This document shows, in pieces, positions 5,969-55,301 of a stretch of DNA of 64,000 nucleotides (position 1 is its first letter; every line of letters begins with the position of its first letter). The notes beneath the pieces were generated by a model. That model made no database searches, had not been told where the DNA came from, and worked only from the letters and a program-made list of their open reading frames with translations. This DNA is from Catenulispora sp. EB89 (GTDB lineage: Bacteria; Actinomycetota; Actinomycetes; Streptomycetales; Catenulisporaceae): NCBI RefSeq assembly GCF_041261445.1, contig NZ_JBGCCU010000018.1, forward strand, positions 62,001 to 126,000, given 5' to 3'. Both the position numbers and the translations under genes were made by a program.

Positions 5969-7219
5969 ATGTTCTCAATCGCCATCGTCTTGTTCTCCGC
6001 GTTCCAATTCGGTGTCGCGGCTTTCACCTTGTGGTGGATGCTGCACGCCTGGCGCACCCCGGAGACGCTCGAATCCACGAAGTTCGCAGCCCCCGACGGC
6101 GACTGCGGCCTGTCGTTCTCGCTCCTGGTGCCGGCGCGGCACGAGCAGGAGGTCCTGGACCGCACGGTGACGCGGCTGTTGGAGTCGACGCACACCGACT
6201 ACGAGGTCCTGGTCATCGTCGGCCACGACGACCCGGAGACCGCCGAGGTGGCGCATGCTCTGGCCGCGCGGAACGCGGGCCGGGTCAGGGTGGTCACCGA
6301 CTACCACGAGAAGAAGAACAAGCCCAAGGCCCTGAACAACGCGCTGCCGCACTGTCGCGGCGACGTCGTCGGGGTCTTCGACGCCGAGGACCAGGTGCAT
6401 CCGGAGCTGCTGGCGCACGTCGACCACGCGTTCCGGGACACCGACGCCGCGGTGGTGCAGGGCGGCGTGCAGCTCATCAACTACCACTCGTCCTGGTACA
6501 GCCTGCGCAACTGCCTGGAGTACTTCTTCTGGTTCCGCAGCCGGCTGCACCTGCACGCCAGCAAGGGTTTCATCCCGCTCGGCGGCAACACCGTGTTCGT
6601 GCGGACCGACCTGCTGCGCGCGAACGGCGGCTGGGACCAGGACTGTCTGGCGGAGGACTGCGATCTCGGTGTCCGCCTGTCGTCGCAGGGGGCGAAGGTG
6701 GTCGTCGCCTACGACTCGGAGATGGTCACCCGCGAGGAGACGCCCGGTTCGGTCGTCGCGCTGATGAAGCAGCGGACTCGCTGGAACCAGGGCTTCCTGC
6801 AGGTGCTGCGGAAGAAGGACTGGAAGCGGCTCCCCACGCGCCGCCAGCGCCTGCTGGCCCGCTACACCCTGATGACGCCGTTCTTCCAGGCGTTCTCCGG
6901 CGTCCTGGTCATGCTCGGCTTCACCGTAGCGCTCATCACGAACGTGCCGATCGGGGTCGCGCTGATCTCGTTCCTGCCGGTGATCCCGATGCTGGCGACG
7001 TTCTTCTTCGAAGCCGTCGGGCTGCACGACTTCGGCAAGCAGTACCAGCTTCCGGTACGGCCGCGGCACTACGTCAAACTGCTCCTCGGCGGCCCGGTCT
7101 ACCAGCTGATCCTGGCTTGGGCGGCACTGCGCGCGGTATGGCGTGAGGCGCGCGGCCGCAAGGACTGGGAACTCACCAAGCACGTCGGCGCGCACCTCGA
7201 AGCCGAGGCCGCACTCTGA
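5969..7219 (+). CDS. Membrane glycosyltransferase family 2
   Basis: A 416-residue inverting GT2 enzyme. I chose ATG 5969 (MFSIAIVLF), which has AGGGGGA upstream, over an in-frame start at 5921. One N-terminal TM segment (about 1-22) precedes a GT-A domain with SLLVPARHE, the nucleotide-sugar/metal motif DAED (about 138), the ED of EDCDLG (about 229) and QRTRW (about 268). These are the D, DxD, ED, QxxRW signature of processive synthases such as cellulose and hyaluronan synthases. Several TM helices follow (about 300-400). It probably transfers sugar from a UDP or GDP donor to a lipid or polymer at the inner membrane face; the substrate is unknown. It is first in a three-gene operon; its stop codon overlaps the next ATG. 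Confidence 0.9.
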   Translation: MFSIAIVLFSAFQFGVAAFTLWWMLHAWRTPETLESTKFAAPDGDCGLSFSLLVPARHEQEVLDRTVTRLLESTHTDYEVLVIVGHDDPETAEVAHALAARNAGRVRVVTDYHEKKNKPKALNNALPHCRGDVVGVFDAEDQVHPELLAHVDHAFRDTDAAVVQGGVQLINYHSSWYSLRNCLEYFFWFRSRLHLHASKGFIPLGGNTVFVRTDLLRANGGWDQDCLAEDCDLGVRLSSQGAKVVVAYDSEMVTREETPGSVVALMKQRTRWNQGFLQVLRKKDWKRLPTRRQRLLARYTLMTPFFQAFSGVLVMLGFTVALITNVPIGVALISFLPVIPMLATFFFEAVGLHDFGKQYQLPVRPRHYVKLLLGGPVYQLILAWAALRAVWREARGRKDWELTKHVGAHLEAEAAL

Positions 7220-48179: not shown

Positions 48180-48206
48180 CGGGCGAGCCTTACCGGGCGA
48201 GCCTTA
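48180..48206. repeat. Two direct copies of CGGGCGAGCCTTA
   Basis: Copies at 48180-48192 and 48194-48206; the second overlaps the stop codon of the lipoprotein gene. It lies between the end of the lipoprotein gene and the start of the DUF4132 gene on the minus strand, so it could affect the latter's promoter. Confidence 0.6.
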
Positions 48207-48860
48207 TGACGGTGACGTGGCGCCGTGGCTGTGGCCGCCGGCCAGTCTCGGCGCTATGGCGTTCGCCGCCTCCAGGGCTTCCTCGCAAACGTGCTCTGCC
48301 GGTGGGGCGCGTGTCAGAAGGAGCTGGGGCGGTATCTGCAGGTGGATGGCCAGACTCGACCCGGACGTGGCCTGGATCGCCATGTAGCACTCACCCTGGT
48401 AGGTGAGCAGATCCTGCTTGCCGGGACGGCCGTCGCTGGTTGACACGTTGGAGGACTGACCGTCTGCGGGGAATTCCGCGCCCACATCGGCAAAGGGGAT
48501 CGCGGCCAGTTCGACGGACAACATTCGGTTGCGACCGAACCAGGTGCAGTCGCTGTCCTCGTATTCAATCGGAGCCGGAGACGGGGATTTCGCCAGCGCA
48601 GCAAGCTTGAGCCGGCTGAGGGTGTCGGCCGGGAGCAGCGTGCACGCGTCAACGGTCTGCCACCAGTCATCGGGATTGCCCGGGTTCGGAACAGGGGTGT
48701 ACGGGGGCGGCGTCGTGTACACGGGTTCGCACACGCACGCGACAGGGTCGCAGTGGGTCTTCGAGCCTCCGCAGTTCCCTGCACATCCGGACACGCCGGC
48801 GATCAGTAAAGCGCCGAAGAGGGCAGCGGTCATGATCGGGGCGAAAGTTCGGCCGTTCAT
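48204..48860 (-). CDS. Lipoprotein with DUF3558-like domain
   Basis: A 218-residue protein; ATG 48860 has GGGGAGG upstream. The signal ends in lipobox LIAGVSGCAG (Cys about 26), then a Cys-rich, Pro-rich linker (CGGSKTHCDPVACVC). The folded domain begins with VDACTLLPADTLSRLKL and has DSDCTWFG, a pattern typical of actinobacterial DUF3558 lipoproteins in which the two Cys pair. Function is unknown; it is outside the membrane. Confidence 0.78.
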   Translation of the reverse strand: MNGRTFAPIMTAALFGALLIAGVSGCAGNCGGSKTHCDPVACVCEPVYTTPPPYTPVPNPGNPDDWWQTVDACTLLPADTLSRLKLAALAKSPSPAPIEYEDSDCTWFGRNRMLSVELAAIPFADVGAEFPADGQSSNVSTSDGRPGKQDLLTYQGECYMAIQATSGSSLAIHLQIPPQLLLTRAPPAEHVCEEALEAANAIAPRLAGGHSHGATSPS

Positions 48861-48958
48861 CGCGGACCTCCCCGTGTGGCCGAGGGCCTTCACGCCCTAT
48901 TTTAAATCAGGGCACAGCGATACGGAACGGTGCGGGCACGCCGGCGGCCTGAGCACCA

Positions 48959-49417
48959 TCAGATCAGGCTGAGGTAGCAGATCGCCTTGTGAAAGCCGTG
49001 GTCCCAGTCCTCCTGCAGGCTCGGATAGATGATTTTGTAGTTCAGATCGGTGGACCCGGGAAGCATGTACTGCTGGGCCTCACTGTCCGGCACCTTGTCC
49101 ACGGCCGCCTTGCACAGGCTGTCCGCCTGGTCCTTCGCCTGCGCGTACGGGCCGGCCAAGTCGCCCACCGCGAACACCTTGACGCTGGAGCTGTTGCCGC
49201 ACGGCACGATCTGCGGCGGCTTGGGAGCCTCATCCGCTTTCAGGAACTGGCCGAATGGCGCGTTGTCGATGATGCAGTCGTCCGCCTGGATCGAGTTGAG
49301 CGTGTTGACGTACGTCTTGTACCCGTCGTCATACGCCTGGCTGCCGCTGCCGCACCCCGCGGTGGCCAGCGCTGAGGCCGCGAGGATCGTGAAGGTGGCT
49401 ATGCGTATTGTTTTCAC
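48959..49417 (-). CDS. Small lipoprotein of unknown function
   Basis: A 152-residue protein with GTG at 49417; no strong ribosome site is visible. The lipobox ATAGCGSG has Cys about 22. The mature part has four further Cys (DDCIID, VPCGN, SLCKA, AICYL), suggesting two disulfides. I do not recognise the family; the layout is like septum-formation-type extracellular domains but the match is weak. The upstream gap carries three palindromes. Confidence 0.65.
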   Translation of the reverse strand: MKTIRIATFTILAASALATAGCGSGSQAYDDGYKTYVNTLNSIQADDCIIDNAPFGQFLKADEAPKPPQIVPCGNSSSVKVFAVGDLAGPYAQAKDQADSLCKAAVDKVPDSEAQQYMLPGSTDLNYKIIYPSLQEDWDHGFHKAICYLSLI

Positions 49418-49526: not shown

Positions 49527-49937
49527 CTATTGGCTAGAAGCAGTGGCCGGGCTCATCGGGTCGATGACGGCCCAGTGCTCGACCAACAGCCCGTCCTGGA
49601 AGCGGATGACGTCCATGACTCGGAACTCCATGCGCTCGCCCGACGGCGGTGCGCCGAACCACGGCCCGGTGTGCCGGCCGCGGAACATCTTGTGGGTGGC
49701 TACCAAATCGCCGTCGCCGACGCAGTGCAGAATCTCGATCCGCAGGTCGGAGAAAGCCTCGTGCAAAGCCGCCATGAAGTCGTGGACCCCGTCCAGGCCA
49801 TCGCGCTGGCCCGGACCGATGGTGCGGTTCCGGAAGTCGGGATGTACGAGCTCGTCGATCAGCTCCAACCGGCCCCCTTCTTGCACCTGCTCGATGAAGA
49901 ACCGCATGCGCTCCACGTTGGACTCTTGGCTGCCCAC
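49527..49937 (-). CDS. SnoaL-like (NTF2-fold) protein
   Basis: A 136-residue protein. GTG 49937 is chosen because AAGGCGG lies upstream and the fold begins at SNVERMRFFIEQVQEGGRLELIDELVHPDF. The cone-shaped NTF2 fold with RDGLDGVHDFMAALHEAFSDLRIEI, GDGDLVATHKMFRGRHTG and DVIRFQDGLLVEHWAVID matches SnoaL/ester-cyclase relatives. These act on small hydrophobic molecules, but many have no known substrate. No partner gene is evident. Confidence 0.85.
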   Translation of the reverse strand: MGSQESNVERMRFFIEQVQEGGRLELIDELVHPDFRNRTIGPGQRDGLDGVHDFMAALHEAFSDLRIEILHCVGDGDLVATHKMFRGRHTGPWFGAPPSGERMEFRVMDVIRFQDGLLVEHWAVIDPMSPATASSQ

Positions 49938-50144
49938 GCAGCACCGCCTTTCCGCCTGGATCCGCCACCCGGTAGAAACGGGCTGATGACCGGCCCCGCT
50001 GCCCCTCCAGCAGCAGGACGCAGTCATGTATATCGCAGCAGCCGTGCTCGGTCCCGGCTTCGCCTCACTGGAGCCCGTTCCGGCTCCTATTCCGGCTCCG
50101 AACCCCGCACCGAATCCCGCTCCGCATCTGGCTCCAGCGCGAAA

Positions 50145-50966
50145 TCAGCACCCGTGGAAGTCAGGGCTGGCCGACCACCCCGCATTCGCCCACGCCTGCG
50201 CGGGCGCGGGTGTGAAGCCGGCGTACATCCCGTGCAACTGGCCGAGGAGCCAGGTGGTGAAGCGGGCGGCGCTCTGCGGGCAGGTGTGGACGCCGTCGCT
50301 GCTGCGGTCGTGTTTTCCGTCCTTGTCCTGCTGGTAAGTAGGACCCCAGACGGCGGTGGCGTCGAAGACGGCCGCCTGGCCCGAGGATCCTGCGGCGACT
50401 GCCTGTGCGGCGGCTCCGGCGTGGGCGAGGTCGGCCATGTGGGGCTGGTAGAAATCGTCGGGCTTGATCGGCGGCATGGTGACGAAGACCAGCTTGGCGC
50501 CGTATCCGACGGTGGTCGCGAGCAGCTTCTGATAGGCGGCCTGCTGCTGTTGCTGAGTGCCCCAGTCGTACGTGGTCAGCTGGTAGACGACAACGGTGGG
50601 CTTGGCCGAGGCGATCTGCGCGGGCAGTTGCCGCCAGTTGGCGTCGGCAGCGGGGCCGACCACGTTGCCGCCTCCGGCCGCCGCGATCGACTGGAACTGG
50701 ACGTTGCCGGCCTTGAACGCGGCGGCCAGCGGCAGCGCCTCCTGCTCGGCTATGGAGTCGCCGAGGAAGAGGACCTTGGAGAGTCGGGCGTCGGTTCTGC
50801 CAGCTGCACCAGCCGCACCGGACGTGCCAGCCGCACCGGCCGCGCTGCTCGCACCGCCACCGCTCAAGCCGGCCGAACCTCCCGACCGCGCGGAGCAGGC
50901 GACGGTCCCGGCGGCTCCGAAGGCGAGACACGCGACAGCGAGCATGAGATTTCGAATGCTTGTCAT
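50145..50966 (-). CDS. Exported SGNH/GDSL-type hydrolase
   Basis: A 273-residue protein. ATG 50966 is supported because the upstream control element lies at the same distance here as in the acyltransferase gene. The signal ends at TVACSARSGG (Cys about 24, probable lipoprotein), then a Gly/Ala/Ser linker. The SGNH core has VLFLGDSIAEQEAL (nucleophile Ser), a block II-like Gly in AAAGGGNVVG and the C-terminal SSDGVHTCPQSAARF (catalytic Asp-x-x-His). The block III Asn (GxND) is not obvious; VVVYQLTTYDW occupies its place. Such enzymes remove or transfer acyl groups on surface sugars and are natural partners of acyltransferase-3 proteins, one of which lies 3 kb away. Confidence 0.82.
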   Translation of the reverse strand: MTSIRNLMLAVACLAFGAAGTVACSARSGGSAGLSGGGASSAAGAAGTSGAAGAAGRTDARLSKVLFLGDSIAEQEALPLAAAFKAGNVQFQSIAAAGGGNVVGPAADANWRQLPAQIASAKPTVVVYQLTTYDWGTQQQQQAAYQKLLATTVGYGAKLVFVTMPPIKPDDFYQPHMADLAHAGAAAQAVAAGSSGQAAVFDATAVWGPTYQQDKDGKHDRSSDGVHTCPQSAARFTTWLLGQLHGMYAGFTPAPAQAWANAGWSASPDFHGC

Positions 50967-51005
50967 GCCCTCGACGGTGACCCGGCCGCGTCCGAGCACC
51001 AACGC

Positions 51006-51030
51006 GGTTGTGTCGCGGTTGTGTCGTAGG
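51006..51030. promoter_or_regulatory. Direct-repeat element upstream of the SGNH and response-regulator genes
   Basis: GTGTCGC (51010) and GTGTCGTAG (51021) repeat with an 11-bp period; the wider GGTTGTGTC is duplicated at 51006 and 51017. It begins 44 nt upstream of the SGNH start codon, in the gap shared with the divergent response-regulator gene. An almost identical element precedes the acyltransferase gene. The 11-bp direct repeat suits an OmpR-type dimer. Confidence 0.65.
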
Positions 51031-51088
51031 AGTCCGCAGCCGGCCGATCTCCGGCTGATCTCCGGCCAACGACACCCATACTGGACGC

Positions 51089-51763
51089 GTGGAAGCGATT
51101 CTGATCATCGAGGACGATTCCCGGCTGCGCCGCGGCCTGGAGCTGGCGCTCAGCCGGCTCGGGTATGCCGTGCAGACCGCCGCCACCGGCGAGGAGGGCC
51201 TGGCGCGGCTGCCGGAGACCAGGCCGGACCTGGTCGTCCTCGACGTGGTCCTGCCGGGTCTCGACGGCTTCCAGGTGTGCCGCCGGATCCGCGCCGCCGG
51301 CACGACCCCGATCATCATGCTCACGGCGCGCGGCGACGACTTCGACGTCGTGGCCGGCCTGGAGGCCGGGGCCGACGACTACATCGTCAAGCCGGCCCGG
51401 CCCAGCGTGCTCGATGCCCGGATCCGCGCGGTCCTGCGCCGGATGCCCGGTACCGCCGAGGAGGTGCGCGTGTTCGGCGAGCTGCGGATCGACACCTCCG
51501 CGCTCACCGTGACGCTGCGGGCCGAGCCGGTGCCGCTCACACCGACCGAGATGCGGCTGCTGCTCACGATCTCGCGCGCGGAGGGACGCGTGTTCAGTCG
51601 GCAACAGCTGCTCGAGCAGGTCTGGGAGCACGACTACCTCGGAGACTCCCGGCTGGTCGACAACTGCGTGCAACGGCTGCGCGCGAAGATAGAGACCGAC
51701 GCGGCCAGCCCGGTCTACGTCCAGACGGTGCGAGGGTTCGGCTACCGCTTCGGGCCGGTATGA
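51089..51763 (+). CDS. OmpR/PhoB-type response regulator
   Basis: A 224-residue two-domain regulator with GTG start. The receiver domain (about 3-115) has the acidic pair Asp9/Asp10, phospho-acceptor Asp52 (LVVLDVVLPG), Thr79 and Lys101 (YIVKPA). The winged helix (about 125-222) ends YVQTVRGFGYRFGPV. Its stop overlaps the ATG of the kinase gene. It probably binds the 11-bp direct repeats found upstream of its own gene and of the acyltransferase gene; this is inferred. Confidence 0.93.
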   Translation: MEAILIIEDDSRLRRGLELALSRLGYAVQTAATGEEGLARLPETRPDLVVLDVVLPGLDGFQVCRRIRAAGTTPIIMLTARGDDFDVVAGLEAGADDYIVKPARPSVLDARIRAVLRRMPGTAEEVRVFGELRIDTSALTVTLRAEPVPLTPTEMRLLLTISRAEGRVFSRQQLLEQVWEHDYLGDSRLVDNCVQRLRAKIETDAASPVYVQTVRGFGYRFGPV

Positions 51764-53436
51764 CCGCCCGCCGTGGGTGGTCGCGCAGGTGGCCCCGCGG
51801 GCTGCGCGCACGGCTGGTGGTCGCGTTCGTCCTGGTGGCCGTGCTCGGTGCCGCGGCGGCGGCGTGGGCGAGCGCCCGGTCGGCGAGCGACGCGCTGGCG
51901 GCCGGCGCCGAGCGGCAGTCCGTGGAGACCGTCCGGAGCCAGATCACGAGCGTCACGGCCGGACTGACCTATCCGCCGAACCAGTCCGCACTGGACCAGC
52001 TGGCCGCGACCGTCGGCGCGGACACCCTCGTCACGTATCAGAACCTGCGTGCCACGACCGGCCCCGACACCGGACTGGTCACTACCGCGGTTCAAGCCGC
52101 GGCGCGCGGTGGCGACTCCCTGGTCGTGCAACGGATTGTCGCCGCGGGCAAGCCGTGGCTGGTCGTCGGGACGCCCATCATGATCACGTCGGTCAACGGG
52201 GCGCGGAGCCCGTCGGGGATCGAGGTCTACACCGTCCGCGACCTGACCGGGGTCCAGCAGCAGATCGACGGGCTCACCAGGTCCGCGGCGCTCACGACCG
52301 GGCTGGCGCTGCCGGTGGCGGTGGTGCTGGCGCTGGTGGCTGCCGGCAGCGTGCTGCGTCCGGTGCGCAGGCTGCGCGACACGGCGCGCCGGCTGTCCGC
52401 GGGCGACCTCGACGCGCGTGCGGTCCCGCGGGGTGCGGACGAACTGGCCGATCTGACCGCCACGCTCAACGCGATGGCCGGATCCGTGCAGGACTCGATG
52501 GCGGCGATGCGCCGGATGCAGGACGACGCCCGCCGGTTCGCCGCCGACGCCGCGCACGAACTGCGGACGCCGCTGAGCACGCTGACCGCGGTGATGGACG
52601 TGCTCGCCGACGCCAGCGACGCGATGGAGGGCGACGCGCGGGAGTCGGCACAGCTGGCGATCGCCGAGACCCAGCGGCTGGTCCAACTCGTCGAAGACCT
52701 CATGGAGGTCTCCCGGTTCGACGCCGGCACGGCCCGGCTGCGCACCGAGGACGTCGAGGTCGTGGGCGCCGTGCGCGACTGCCTGCGGAGCCGGGGATGG
52801 ACGGCGCGAGTGGAGCTCCGGGCCGAGGGGGAGATCTGGTTGCGGTGCGACCGGCGGCGGCTGGACGTCATCGTCGCGAACCTGGTCGGCAACGCGCTGC
52901 GGCATGGTGCGCCGCCGGTGGCGGTGCGGGTGTCCGCCTCGGACGGACAGGTGTGGGTGGAGGTCACCGACAGCGGGCCGGGCTTGCCCGAGCACGTGCT
53001 GCCGCACGTCTTCGACCGCTTCTACAAGGCCGACGAGGCCCGCACGCGCGCTCCGGGCAACGGGTTGGGGCTGGCCATCGCGCTGGAGAACACGATGTTG
53101 CACGGTGGGGAGCTCACTGCGGGCAATGCCGACGGCAATACCGACCGCGACCGCGACCGCGACCGCGACCGCGACGGCGGCGACGGCGGGGGCGGGGGCT
53201 ACGGCGACGGCGACGGCGGCGGTGGCGACGGCGGCGGCGGCGACGGCGGTGGCGGTGGCGGCGACGGCGGTGGCGGCGGCGGTAGCGGCGGTGGCGGTGG
53301 CGGCGACGGCGGTGGCGGCGGCGGTGGCGGCGACGGCGGCCGGGGCGGTGGTGGCGGCGGCGGCCGGGGCGGCAACGGCGGAGGCGGCGGCGCGCGCTTC
53401 GTCGTGCGTCTGCCTCGGCGAGGGGAGGACGGATGA
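51760..53436 (+). CDS. Sensor histidine kinase with a large Gly/Asp low-complexity insert
   Basis: A 558-residue kinase overlapping the regulator gene (ATGA). TM1 about 19-42, extracytoplasmic sensor about 43-180, TM2 about 182-206, HAMP about 207-258. The H-box AADAAHELRTPLS contains His266. The ATPase domain has N-box VANLVGNALRHG (about 370-381), DSGPGLP (about 404) and GNGLGLAIA (about 433). Residues about 457-546 are then low-complexity: an Asp-Arg repeat followed by Gly/Asp runs. The normal final strand (ARFVVRLPRR) follows. The insert lies at a surface turn of the ATPase domain, so activity may be kept. Family members are usually 90 residues shorter. Confidence 0.9.
   Translation: MTARRGWSRRWPRGLRARLVVAFVLVAVLGAAAAAWASARSASDALAAGAERQSVETVRSQITSVTAGLTYPPNQSALDQLAATVGADTLVTYQNLRATTGPDTGLVTTAVQAAARGGDSLVVQRIVAAGKPWLVVGTPIMITSVNGARSPSGIEVYTVRDLTGVQQQIDGLTRSAALTTGLALPVAVVLALVAAGSVLRPVRRLRDTARRLSAGDLDARAVPRGADELADLTATLNAMAGSVQDSMAAMRRMQDDARRFAADAAHELRTPLSTLTAVMDVLADASDAMEGDARESAQLAIAETQRLVQLVEDLMEVSRFDAGTARLRTEDVEVVGAVRDCLRSRGWTARVELRAEGEIWLRCDRRRLDVIVANLVGNALRHGAPPVAVRVSASDGQVWVEVTDSGPGLPEHVLPHVFDRFYKADEARTRAPGNGLGLAIALENTMLHGGELTAGNADGNTDRDRDRDRDRDGGDGGGGGYGDGDGGGGDGGGGDGGGGGGDGGGGGGSGGGGGGDGGGGGGGGDGGRGGGGGGGRGGNGGGGGARFVVRLPRRGEDG
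53140..53396. repeat. Simple-sequence expansion inside the kinase gene
   Basis: Tandem GACCGC hexamers (about 53146-53175) run into more than 200 bp of GGC/GGT/GAC triplets. All units are multiples of three, so the reading frame is kept. Length is likely to vary between strains by slippage. Confidence 0.85.
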
Positions 53437-53933
53437 AACGGGTGTCGTGGCCGGCGGCGGTGCTTCTGCTGCTCGCGCTGCTCGCCGGGTGCAGCGTCAC
53501 TCCGACCGGGGTGCGGGCCGCCGGACAGGCGCCGGGCGGGGTGGCGCCGGGGCCGACGTTGTACTACGTCGACGCCGGCGAGCACCTTCACCCGCAGGTA
53601 CGTCTGACCGGTCAACTGGGGACCGTGGCCGAGGCGCTGTCGGCGCTGCTGTCCGGGCCGCCCGGGGTGCCCGGCGAGACCGGGCTGCACACGGAGATCG
53701 CCAATGCGGGGGTCACGCAGGTCGTGGTGACCGTCAAACCGGGGGTGTTGGAGCTGATCGTGCCGTTGTCCGTCAACGACGTGAGCGCGTTGGGGATCGA
53801 GCAGATCGTGTGCACGGCGTTGGGCGTTCACGTCCAAGGCGGCGGATCCACCTCCGCCAAGGTGCAGTTGGAGTTCACCCAGCCGACTGCGCAGTCGGAC
53901 CAGCTGCGGACGTGTCCGTTGATCGCGGGCTGA
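53433..53933 (+). CDS. GerMN-like lipoprotein
   Basis: A 166-residue protein whose ATG overlaps the kinase stop (ATGA), so it belongs to the two-component operon. Lipobox LLAGCSVTP has Cys about 20. The mature domain has LYYVDAGEHLHPQVR, then TVAEALSALLSGPPGVPGETGLHTEI and LIVPLSVNDVSALGIEQIVCTAL, which resembles the GerMN/sporulation-type lipoprotein fold. In actinobacteria such lipoproteins often accompany kinases and may modulate sensing at the membrane (compare LpqB with MtrAB). That role is inferred. Confidence 0.8.
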   Translation: MKRVSWPAAVLLLLALLAGCSVTPTGVRAAGQAPGGVAPGPTLYYVDAGEHLHPQVRLTGQLGTVAEALSALLSGPPGVPGETGLHTEIANAGVTQVVVTVKPGVLELIVPLSVNDVSALGIEQIVCTALGVHVQGGGSTSAKVQLEFTQPTAQSDQLRTCPLIAG

Positions 53934-53971
53934 CCGGCAGACCGGCTGACGCGGCCGGCGTGCGGTTCAGC

Positions 53972-55237
53972 TCAGCTCAGCTTCGTGATGTCGATGGTCG
54001 GCGCGCCCGGGACCGGCAGCAGCCACCACAGCGCGGCGAGGCCGGCCATGACCGCGAGGAACACCGCAAGCCCCGCACGGCCGCGTGCCCAGCCGGCGCG
54101 GAACCGGATCGGGTCCTCGACCAGGTACTTCGACGCCGCCGCCACGGCGATCGAGACGGCGCAGACCGCCGCGGCCCACGGCCAGCCGGTGAGATGGAGG
54201 CGTTGCGGCGTCAGGAGGACGAAAACCGGCCAGTGCCACAGGTAGAGGCTGTAGGAGATCTGACCCACCCAGCGCAGTGGAAGCCGGGCCAGCGTCGTCG
54301 CGACGACGGAGTGCGGGGCCTGCACACGCAGGCCGATCAGCAGCGCGGCGGCGGCGGAGTGCGCGAACAACCCGCCGGTGTAGAGCCAGCGCGAGTCCGT
54401 ACCGCTGACGAGGAGCCAGGCCACTGCGATGGCCGACGCCAGGACGGCTGCCAGCGCACCGCCGTACGGGTACCGGCCGACCGCGCGAGCCAGCGCGTCG
54501 CGGACCGGCCCGGTAGCGATGACCGCGCCCAGCAGAAGCGAGAACGCCCGGGTGTCGGTGCCGGTGTAGACGCGGGTCGGATCGTGCGGGTCAACGAGCG
54601 CGATCATCAGGACCAGGGAGACCGCCGAGATCAGCAGCGCACCGGCCGCGGCCCAGCGCTCCACCCGCCGACCGCCCCGGCGCGCCCACCAGGCGAGCCC
54701 CAGCAACAGCGCCGGCCAGACCAGGTAGAACTGCTCCTCGACCGCGATGCTCCACAGGTGCTCGAACACCCGGGGCGCGTCGTGCTGGTCCCAGTAGCTG
54801 GCCGACTCGGCGAGCAGATGCCAGTTGACGAGGTCGGCCTGCGTCCACGGACCGTCCGAGAGCGTGCTGCGCAACAGATCCGGCGTCCCGAACCGCCACA
54901 CCGCCCCGGCGACGAGCGCCAGCATGACGACCAGAGCCGGCACGAGGCGGCGGACGCGCCGTCCCCAGAACGCGACCAGGGAGACAGAACCGGTCGCGTC
55001 GATCTCGCGCAACAGCAGATCGGTGATGAGGTACCCGGACAGAGCGAAGAACAGATCAACCCCGAGGAACCCGCCGCTCAGGTGGCCGGTGTGGAACAGC
55101 AGCACCCCGAGGATCGCGACGCCGCGCAAGCCGTCCAACGCGGGAAGGTGACGCTTGGCGCGCGGCGGAGGCGGGGTCGGGGTCGGGGGCGAGGCGGGGT
55201 GCTCGCGGGCTGCGTGCTTCGGCAGGGTCGTCGTCAT
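53972..55237 (-). CDS. Acyltransferase-3 family membrane protein (OafA/YrhL-like)
   Basis: A 421-residue polytopic protein with ten or more TM helices. Residues 1-28 are a Pro/Thr-rich tail, then the family motifs: LPALDGLRGVAILGVLLFHTG (with catalytic-type His), FLGVDLFFALSGYLITDLLL, FWGRRVRRLVPALVV and HLWSIAVEEQFYLVWP. It moves an acyl group across the membrane onto surface sugars. It lacks the fused SGNH domain of OafA-type enzymes, but a separate SGNH gene with the same upstream element lies 4 kb away. It converges on the GerMN-like gene with only 38 bp between. Confidence 0.9.
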   Translation of the reverse strand: MTTTLPKHAAREHPASPPTPTPPPPRAKRHLPALDGLRGVAILGVLLFHTGHLSGGFLGVDLFFALSGYLITDLLLREIDATGSVSLVAFWGRRVRRLVPALVVMLALVAGAVWRFGTPDLLRSTLSDGPWTQADLVNWHLLAESASYWDQHDAPRVFEHLWSIAVEEQFYLVWPALLLGLAWWARRGGRRVERWAAAGALLISAVSLVLMIALVDPHDPTRVYTGTDTRAFSLLLGAVIATGPVRDALARAVGRYPYGGALAAVLASAIAVAWLLVSGTDSRWLYTGGLFAHSAAAALLIGLRVQAPHSVVATTLARLPLRWVGQISYSLYLWHWPVFVLLTPQRLHLTGWPWAAAVCAVSIAVAAASKYLVEDPIRFRAGWARGRAGLAVFLAVMAGLAALWWLLPVPGAPTIDITKLS

Positions 55238-55280
55238 GGCGGCGACTCTTCAGCGGCGCTGTCGGTACGTGGTCGCCGTC

Positions 55281-55301
55281 GTGTCGCAGATGTGTCGTAG
55301 C
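55281..55301 (-). promoter_or_regulatory. Direct-repeat element upstream of the acyltransferase gene
   Basis: GTGTCGC (55281) and GTGTCGTAG (55292) with an 11-bp period, beginning 44 nt upstream of the ATG. It matches the element upstream of the SGNH gene in nearly every position across about 27 bp and in distance to the start codon. Confidence 0.65.

Follow-up and report, generated by a model that had tools for sequence, protein, structure and literature searches.

The locus and its paired promoter element

We analysed a 64,000-nucleotide stretch of the genome of Catenulispora sp. EB89 (contig NZ_JBGCCU010000018.1, positions 62,001 to 126,000; hereafter the window), in which positions 50,145 to 55,301 hold the genes of an SGNH hydrolase-type lipoprotein, an OmpR-type response regulator, a histidine kinase, a second lipoprotein and an acyltransferase-3 (AT3) membrane protein. 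Both the SGNH and the AT3 gene are preceded by the element GTGTCGC-N4-GTGTCGTAG, and an initial annotation had proposed on this basis a candidate surface-acylation regulon. Our analysis supports this interpretation, since the element is conserved, is not scattered over the genome and, in two genomes where the genes are unlinked, tracks the regulator, while binding, activation and acylation are predicted. We consider it quite likely that the locus encodes a self-contained two-component regulon for cell-surface acylation, operating by the whole mechanism described below. The features are as follows.

50145..50966, minus strand: SGNH hydrolase-type lipoprotein, 273 amino acids (Pfam, alignment; lipid site by eye)
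50974..50979, minus strand: putative -10 hexamer CACCGT of a leaderless SGNH promoter, -13 to -8 from the ATG
50988..50994, minus strand: predicted operator unit 4 of the SGNH promoter, here CGGACGC (consensus GGGACAC), 33 bp from unit 1
51010..51029, minus strand: predicted operator units 1-2 of the SGNH promoter, CTACGACAC-N4-GCGACAC, -63 to -44 from the ATG and 59 bp upstream of the divergent regulator start
51077..51082, plus strand: putative -10 hexamer CATACT of a leaderless regulator promoter
51089..51763, plus strand: OmpR/PhoB-family response regulator, 224 amino acids, GTG start (Pfam, NCBIfam, alignment)
51760..53436, plus strand: histidine kinase, 558 amino acids, with a PAS/Cache-like extracytoplasmic domain, HAMP, HisKA and HATPase_c (Pfam, structure model)
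53433..53933, plus strand: lipoprotein, 166 amino acids, GerMN fold (structure model, weak Pfam match)
53972..55237, minus strand: AT3 membrane protein, 421 amino acids, without an SGNH domain (Pfam, alignment)
55245..55250, minus strand: putative -10 hexamer AAGAGT of a leaderless AT3 promoter
55259..55265, minus strand: predicted operator unit 4 of the AT3 promoter, CCGACAG
55281..55300, minus strand: predicted operator units 1-2 of the AT3 promoter, CTACGACAC-N4-GCGACAC, -63 to -44 from the ATG

The element stands at 51010-51029 and 55281-55300 without mismatch, is separated by 43 nt from the ATG at both genes (50966 and 55237), and the 27-bp stretches around the two copies agree at 23 of 27 positions. 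The shared, nearly identical element and its equal distance to both start codons are thus borne out, and the earlier observation is stronger than was stated, as a scan of the 11.9-Mb genome returned exactly two exact sites, both at this locus. With up to two mismatches, 10 sites were found against 9 for a reversed control; since these are at control level they were dropped, and only the exact pair stands out. A looser form of the element is not rarer in the window than chance (5 matches versus 5.4 expected), and only two copies there are exact. Beyond the initial annotation, we found two weaker repeat units reaching to about -20, putative leaderless -10 hexamers, a helically phased promoter of the regulator and additional targets in relatives.

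The SGNH, regulator, kinase and AT3 genes had been called correctly. The regulator combines a receiver domain (PF00072, 106.8 bits) with a winged helix (Trans_reg_C, PF00486, 90 bits), and the AT3 protein matches PF01757 at 113.4 bits; the AT3 and SGNH domains do not share one polypeptide in the window, being encoded by separate genes. The SGNH protein matches PF19040 at 28.2 bits (cut-off 27), a weak match shared with the Pfam models Lipase_GDSL_2 and DUF459, and its catalytic residues G69-D70-S71, D224 and H227 are invariant in an alignment of 80 rows. Its C24, a putative lipid site recognised by eye, is invariant in five distinct relatives, and because this conserved cysteine ends the signal sequence, we read the protein as a membrane-held lipoprotein located next to the AT3 protein. 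Sequence searches of the PDB gave no solved relatives of the SGNH or AT3 proteins at E 0.01.

The second lipoprotein has no Pfam match at E 0.001; its own match to Germane/GerMN (PF10646) reaches 16.3 bits (cut-off 23), and this model is matched at E <=0.1 by 20 of 46 members of the lipoprotein family. According to its structure model (pLDDT 87) the protein has a GerMN fold, the five best PDB matches all being GerMN domains of GerM (E 1.5e-3 to 2.6e-2, none below 0.001). The outer domain of the kinase, modelled at pLDDT 85.5, looks PAS/Cache-like, and its sole match with E below 0.001 is an integrative WalK-YycH model. Near its C-terminus (window 53127-53395) the kinase carries, within the ATPase domain, a long Gly/Asp/Arg-rich low-complexity insert encoded by repeated GGCGGC DNA, which is found neither in the two sister species nor in the six other relatives compared.

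Conservation of the element and its link to the regulator

With at most one mismatch, ten Catenulispora genomes hold 8 element sites, six of which are the pairs of the three locus-bearing genomes (G000, G002 and G008). C. pinisilvae NH11 (G008) and C. pinistramenti NL8 (G002) share this gene order and carry the element twice, with 88-89% identity in the regulator and 68-70% in the AT3 protein. The gap to the ATG is 43 nt at all six sites although the flanks diverge, and this fixed spacing supports ATG 50966 as the SGNH start, as had been suggested. The two strays (G001 and G007) were rejected because no start codon follows them at 42 or 43 nt. The SGNH gene, regulator, AT3 orthologue and element pair occur together in 3 of the ten genomes and are all missing from the other seven (two of them incomplete assemblies, 77 and 81%), which retain more distant AT3 proteins (35-46% identity) and a 60-61% regulator paralogue. 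The paralogue in G000 (C25:74397-75065; 60% identical) has its own kinase, and the element is not beside it; 60-61% relatives of this regulator are present in all ten genomes.

For the wider comparison, a GTDB genome scan with the SGNH alignment yielded 152 relatives, and the loci of the best 80 were fetched. The cassette of lipoprotein SGNH, OmpR-type regulator, kinase, GerMN-fold lipoprotein and AT3 is widely conserved, the fetched stretches containing the regulator in 77 loci, the kinase in 76, AT3 in 77 and the lipoprotein in 67. We scored the element by a core of 11 fixed letters, calling a site at scores 9-11, and left L113 (SGNH) and L112 (AT3) out of the counts for want of a start candidate. 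Such an element lies 42-44 nt before the SGNH start in 60 of 79 loci (53 at exactly 43 nt, all with ATG) and 42-43 nt before the AT3 start in 53 of 76 (49 at exactly 43 nt; 51 ATG, 2 GTG), with both present in 46 loci. The element is thus conserved upstream of orthologous genes, here as at the 6/6 Catenulispora sites. A perfect score of 11 was reached at 43 of 79 SGNH genes, whereas scores of 9 or more occurred at 723 of 2,835,998 control positions of the same loci and a score of 11 at 3. When whole genomes were scanned for the full architecture with at most one mismatch, 85 matches were found in 53 genomes (49 with a match) against 1 in the reversed control; 77 of the 85 lie in cassette loci and the other 8 at the starts of exported or membrane-protein genes. 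Seven of 36 exact core sites fall outside the cassette (three of the seven placed by coordinates only), and we provisionally attribute these to chance, even though a single site turned up in the reversed control.

Since the regulator tree does not follow species families (Nocardiopsis appears in several places), the cassette was probably passed between lineages, and the locus is probably horizontally mobile. In the same tree, with five paralogues included, the cassette and Streptomyces-type regulators did not form one clade apart from the paralogues. In Catenuloplanes japonicus (L135) the repeat pair upstream of the SGNH gene is duplicated, and in Myceligenerans pegani (L127, around 6860-7054) the central part of the AT3 gene seems to be lost, since the initial and final residues are encoded in one short frame behind an intact operator.

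The regulators of a Streptomyces/Embleya type form a separate branch of the tree. Their recognition helix reads GD[VA]RLVDACV, against GDSRLVDN in the main type (9 and 17 rows shown), and their SGNH genes carry, 40-41 nt before the ATG, a different element, TGANNAAACGATGACA with ATGAC or GTGAC 22 bp upstream. A different recognition helix is thus paired with a different element of the same 11-bp geometry. Two genomes of this type (G038 and G080) have SGNH and AT3 genes without a neighbouring regulator, and in each a scan with at most one mismatch returned two sites, one at the SGNH gene and one at a distant cognate regulator (85 and 77% identical to the L140 regulator), with none in the reversed control. 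In G058 (L097) the regulator and kinase are missing beside the SGNH, lipoprotein and AT3 genes, and elsewhere in the genome a regulator of 74% identity is preceded, at a distance of 49 bp, by the element with one mismatch; as single-mismatch sites in this genome are near control level, only this placement counts. Because the element changes with the helix, tracks the regulator when unlinked and is placed at the G058 regulator, we predict that it is the regulator's operator. Another factor acting on the same genes, for instance an alternative sigma factor, might instead own the element, as stray or missing sites in some genomes could suggest. Such a factor would, however, have to account for the tracking, the change with the helix and the helical phasing with the regulator promoter described below, and the 11-nt repeat geometry is that of actinobacterial PhoP sites in the sections of PMC7866108 consulted; we consider it very unlikely.

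The element also precedes other genes in relatives. These encode an M1-type peptidase with HExxH in five genomes (G041, G045, G051, G084 and G085; one of the five was Pfam-scanned), a TAP-like secreted hydrolase (G047), of which a 74% homologue lies inside the L077 cassette, an AT3/DUF418 membrane protein (G048), and a polysaccharide deacetylase, by eye a lipoprotein, beside a second regulator in G084, where the gap from the element to the regulator is 50 bp. Deacetylase genes are likewise found in cassettes L128 and L136 of the main type and L141-L143 of the Streptomyces/Embleya type, those of L141-L143 showing 38-39% identity and having the other element (1-2 mismatches) 80-81 nt before the start. 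No additional target carries the element in the genome of EB89, which has only the two sites. Beside the SGNH gene of the window, on the same strand, lie two small genes that look lipoprotein-like by eye (48204-48893 and 48959-49417) and a SnoaL-like gene (49527-49940), without homologues in the sister loci searched.

Promoter architecture and predicted regulation

The consensus sequence upstream of the SGNH genes is CTGCGACACAA CCGCGACACGG CGGCGGAGGCG CCGGGACACGG CGnCGGCACCGTCGAnGCC (53 distinct sites), and that upstream of the AT3 genes is CTGCGACACGA CTGCGACATGn CGGGGACGGnn CCCnGACACGG GnnCGGCACnGTCGGCGCC (49 sites). Tandem repeats with a period of about 11 bp are present and conserved, with units 1, 2 and 4 clearer, unit 3 weak and a partial fifth unit. 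At sites with the 43-nt gap, an A is found at -12 in 53 of 53 SGNH and 49 of 49 AT3 sequences, and a T at -8 in 100% and 95% of them, respectively. They coincide with the two positions under the strongest constraint in a -10 hexamer, and their location fits a transcript start at the ATG, that is, a leaderless promoter. The element itself was considered as a -35/-10 pair and rejected, since no usable pair was seen by eye; the invariant A and T are found further downstream, about 30 nt from it.

In most main-type regulator genes the start codon is closely preceded by CATACT, GATACT or a near variant. The gap between the element and the regulator gene falls into three classes, 38-39 bp (5 of 60 loci), 47-51 bp (47 loci) and 59-61 bp (8 loci), and no locus has an intermediate value; that of the window, outside this count, is 59 bp. 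As the steps amount to about one helical turn, the regulator is probably autoregulated.

For regulator binding, activation, transcript starts, enzymatic roles, substrate and signal, we infer the following scheme. The kinase, through its PAS/Cache-like outer sensor and perhaps modulated by the GerMN lipoprotein, would phosphorylate the OmpR-type regulator, which would bind the 11-bp repeats (consensus CTGCGACACNN) head-to-tail at -63 to -44 and at further units to about -20, and would recruit RNA polymerase to the weak leaderless promoters (NANNGT, -13 to -8) of the SGNH and AT3 genes. This operator also faces, in helical phase, the putative leaderless promoter of the regulator itself, a probable basis of autoregulation. 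The AT3 protein would then bring a cytoplasmic acyl group across the membrane for the lipid-anchored SGNH protein to hand on to a surface glycan, with peptidoglycan as the first candidate, in a split version of the OafA/OatA type.

The sign of regulation is not readable from sequence, and the regulator might instead repress both promoters until a signal relieves the repression, as unit 4 and the partial fifth unit extend into the core promoter. Against this, it is the upstream units, at -63 to -44, that are strongest, and the core promoter is a weak one, with neither TANNNT nor a recognisable -35. A weak core promoter is usual for activator-dependent promoters. We therefore consider repression improbable and retain activation as the preferred reading.

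Several observations nevertheless weigh against the proposed regulon. The position of the operator cannot prove activation, and the -10 hexamers lack the usual first T. The 80 loci, the best of 152, were chosen by SGNH and are kin by descent. The main-type element is not at the expected place in 19 of 79 SGNH genes, namely, seven fused genes (next section), eleven of the Streptomyces/Embleya type, ten of which have the other element with at most two mismatches and one (L148) only a more degenerate one, and L135 (score 8). Likewise, 23 of 76 AT3 genes score below 9, 10-11 of these having degenerate copies at 42-44 nt. At one mismatch the main element is about as frequent as the control in G058 (10 versus 7) and G084 (7 versus 7). 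The Streptomyces-type scan of six genomes gave 11 matches, consisting of 4 at SGNH genes, 2 at distant regulators and 5 strays (3 in G082); G030 had no match though an SGNH gene is present, and the sole match in G081 was a stray. Finally, only few genomes have deacetylase or peptidase targets, and none was found in that of EB89.

Predicted acylation, its candidate substrate and related systems

The reading of the SGNH and AT3 proteins as a split OafA-type enzyme, made in the initial annotation, is well supported, as both parts form one open frame of 600-669 amino acids in seven related loci (L120, L121, L123, L126, L128, L136 and L151). All seven fused proteins have the AT3 domain and all seven a GDSL/SGNH-type domain, the latter below the curated cut-offs of Pfam. 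The element lies 42-43 nt before the fused start in five of them; in the other two (L128 and L136) a deacetylase gene stands immediately upstream of the fused gene, and the element is found 43 nt ahead of this deacetylase gene. It might be argued that the SGNH protein acts as an esterase and takes acyl groups off, making the regulon an add-and-remove pair, since the SGNH domain match is weak and shared with Lipase_GDSL_2 and DUF459, and SGNH hydrolases include esterases on the same polymer, such as Ape1 (described in part of PMC9487903). However, the fusion of AT3 and SGNH in seven relatives, beside the same kind of regulator, speaks against this, and joint induction of opposing enzymes would be less economical; we regard the esterase explanation as unlikely and the split transferase as the preferred one.

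The nature of the substrate is less certain. The additional targets, a deacetylase and secreted peptidases, hint at peptidoglycan. A deacetylase and an O-acyltransferase form the classical lysozyme-blunting pair of peptidoglycan modifications. Yet there is only slightly less than an even chance that the regulon is as described and acts on something else, such as a wall polymer, an exopolysaccharide, a surface lipid or a secreted antibiotic. The cassette includes no substrate gene, the sole named model matched by the AT3 protein is SucT, far below its cut-off (111 versus 1275 bits), and AT3 proteins act on many substrates, antibiotics in Actinobacteria included, according to passages of PMC9558356. 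In favour of peptidoglycan, the deacetylase carries the element in three main-type (G084, L128 and L136) and three Streptomyces/Embleya-type loci (L141-L143), and the GerMN lipoprotein points to envelope sensing. Taking peptidoglycan as the substrate, we tentatively suggest, as a possibility below even odds, a wall-defence stimulon mobile between families, in which a GerMN-assisted two-component system would sense peptidoglycan attack or damage and induce, via a uniform operator and leaderless promoters, O-acylation by split or fused AT3-SGNH enzymes and, in some lineages, N-deacetylation and secreted peptidases.

In this cassette, soil bacteria present one enzyme in naturally split and in fused form, under promoters of the same kind. 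The cassette also supplies an operator, a list of targets and a reporter, all ready for use, for a signalling system that occurs in many families of actinobacteria, and it may connect envelope sensing with regulated modification of the wall. We found no published description of it among the matches listed, subscription literature being mostly outside the scope of the search, and the terms 'acyltransferase' and 'SGNH' are absent, by term search, from the main text of a review of S. coelicolor two-component systems (PMC9739842). MSMEG_0244/0246 with MSMEG_0243 was considered as the same system and rejected, as MSMEG_0243 is a heme-binding protein in the part of PMC7516205 concerned with it.

Among known enzymes, OatA, OafA and OafB have the same two domains, which are fused in the seven cassette relatives mentioned, and the SGNH catalytic residues are kept here; in contrast to them, the window has two genes, an SGNH protein that is a predicted lipoprotein, and dedicated two-component control. 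PatA/PatB and AlgI/AlgX likewise join a membrane acyl carrier to a separate extracytoplasmic SGNH protein, as outlined in portions of PMC9487903 and PMC9558356, but they use MBOAT proteins instead of AT3 and come from Gram-negative bacteria. As for the regulatory genes, MtrAB-LpqB also places regulator, kinase and lipoprotein genes in a row, and LpqB carries a GerMN domain. However, our regulator (240 bits; MtrA cut-off 300) and kinase (250 bits; MtrB cut-off 450) both fall below the respective models, and the predicted regulon is a local one of two promoters plus the regulator's own. Among NCBIfam models the regulator scores highest with CseB (266 bits), yet again below the cut-off (350), and while CseBC is accompanied by a lipoprotein, CseA, a sigma-E gene was not seen in the cassette. 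The PHO boxes of Streptomyces PhoP are also built of 11-nt direct repeat units, that of pitH2 in S. avermitilis having two good units beside two weaker ones in the section of PMC7866108 that describes it, whereas the predicted operator of the cassette has a different sequence (CTGCGACACNN) and different targets.

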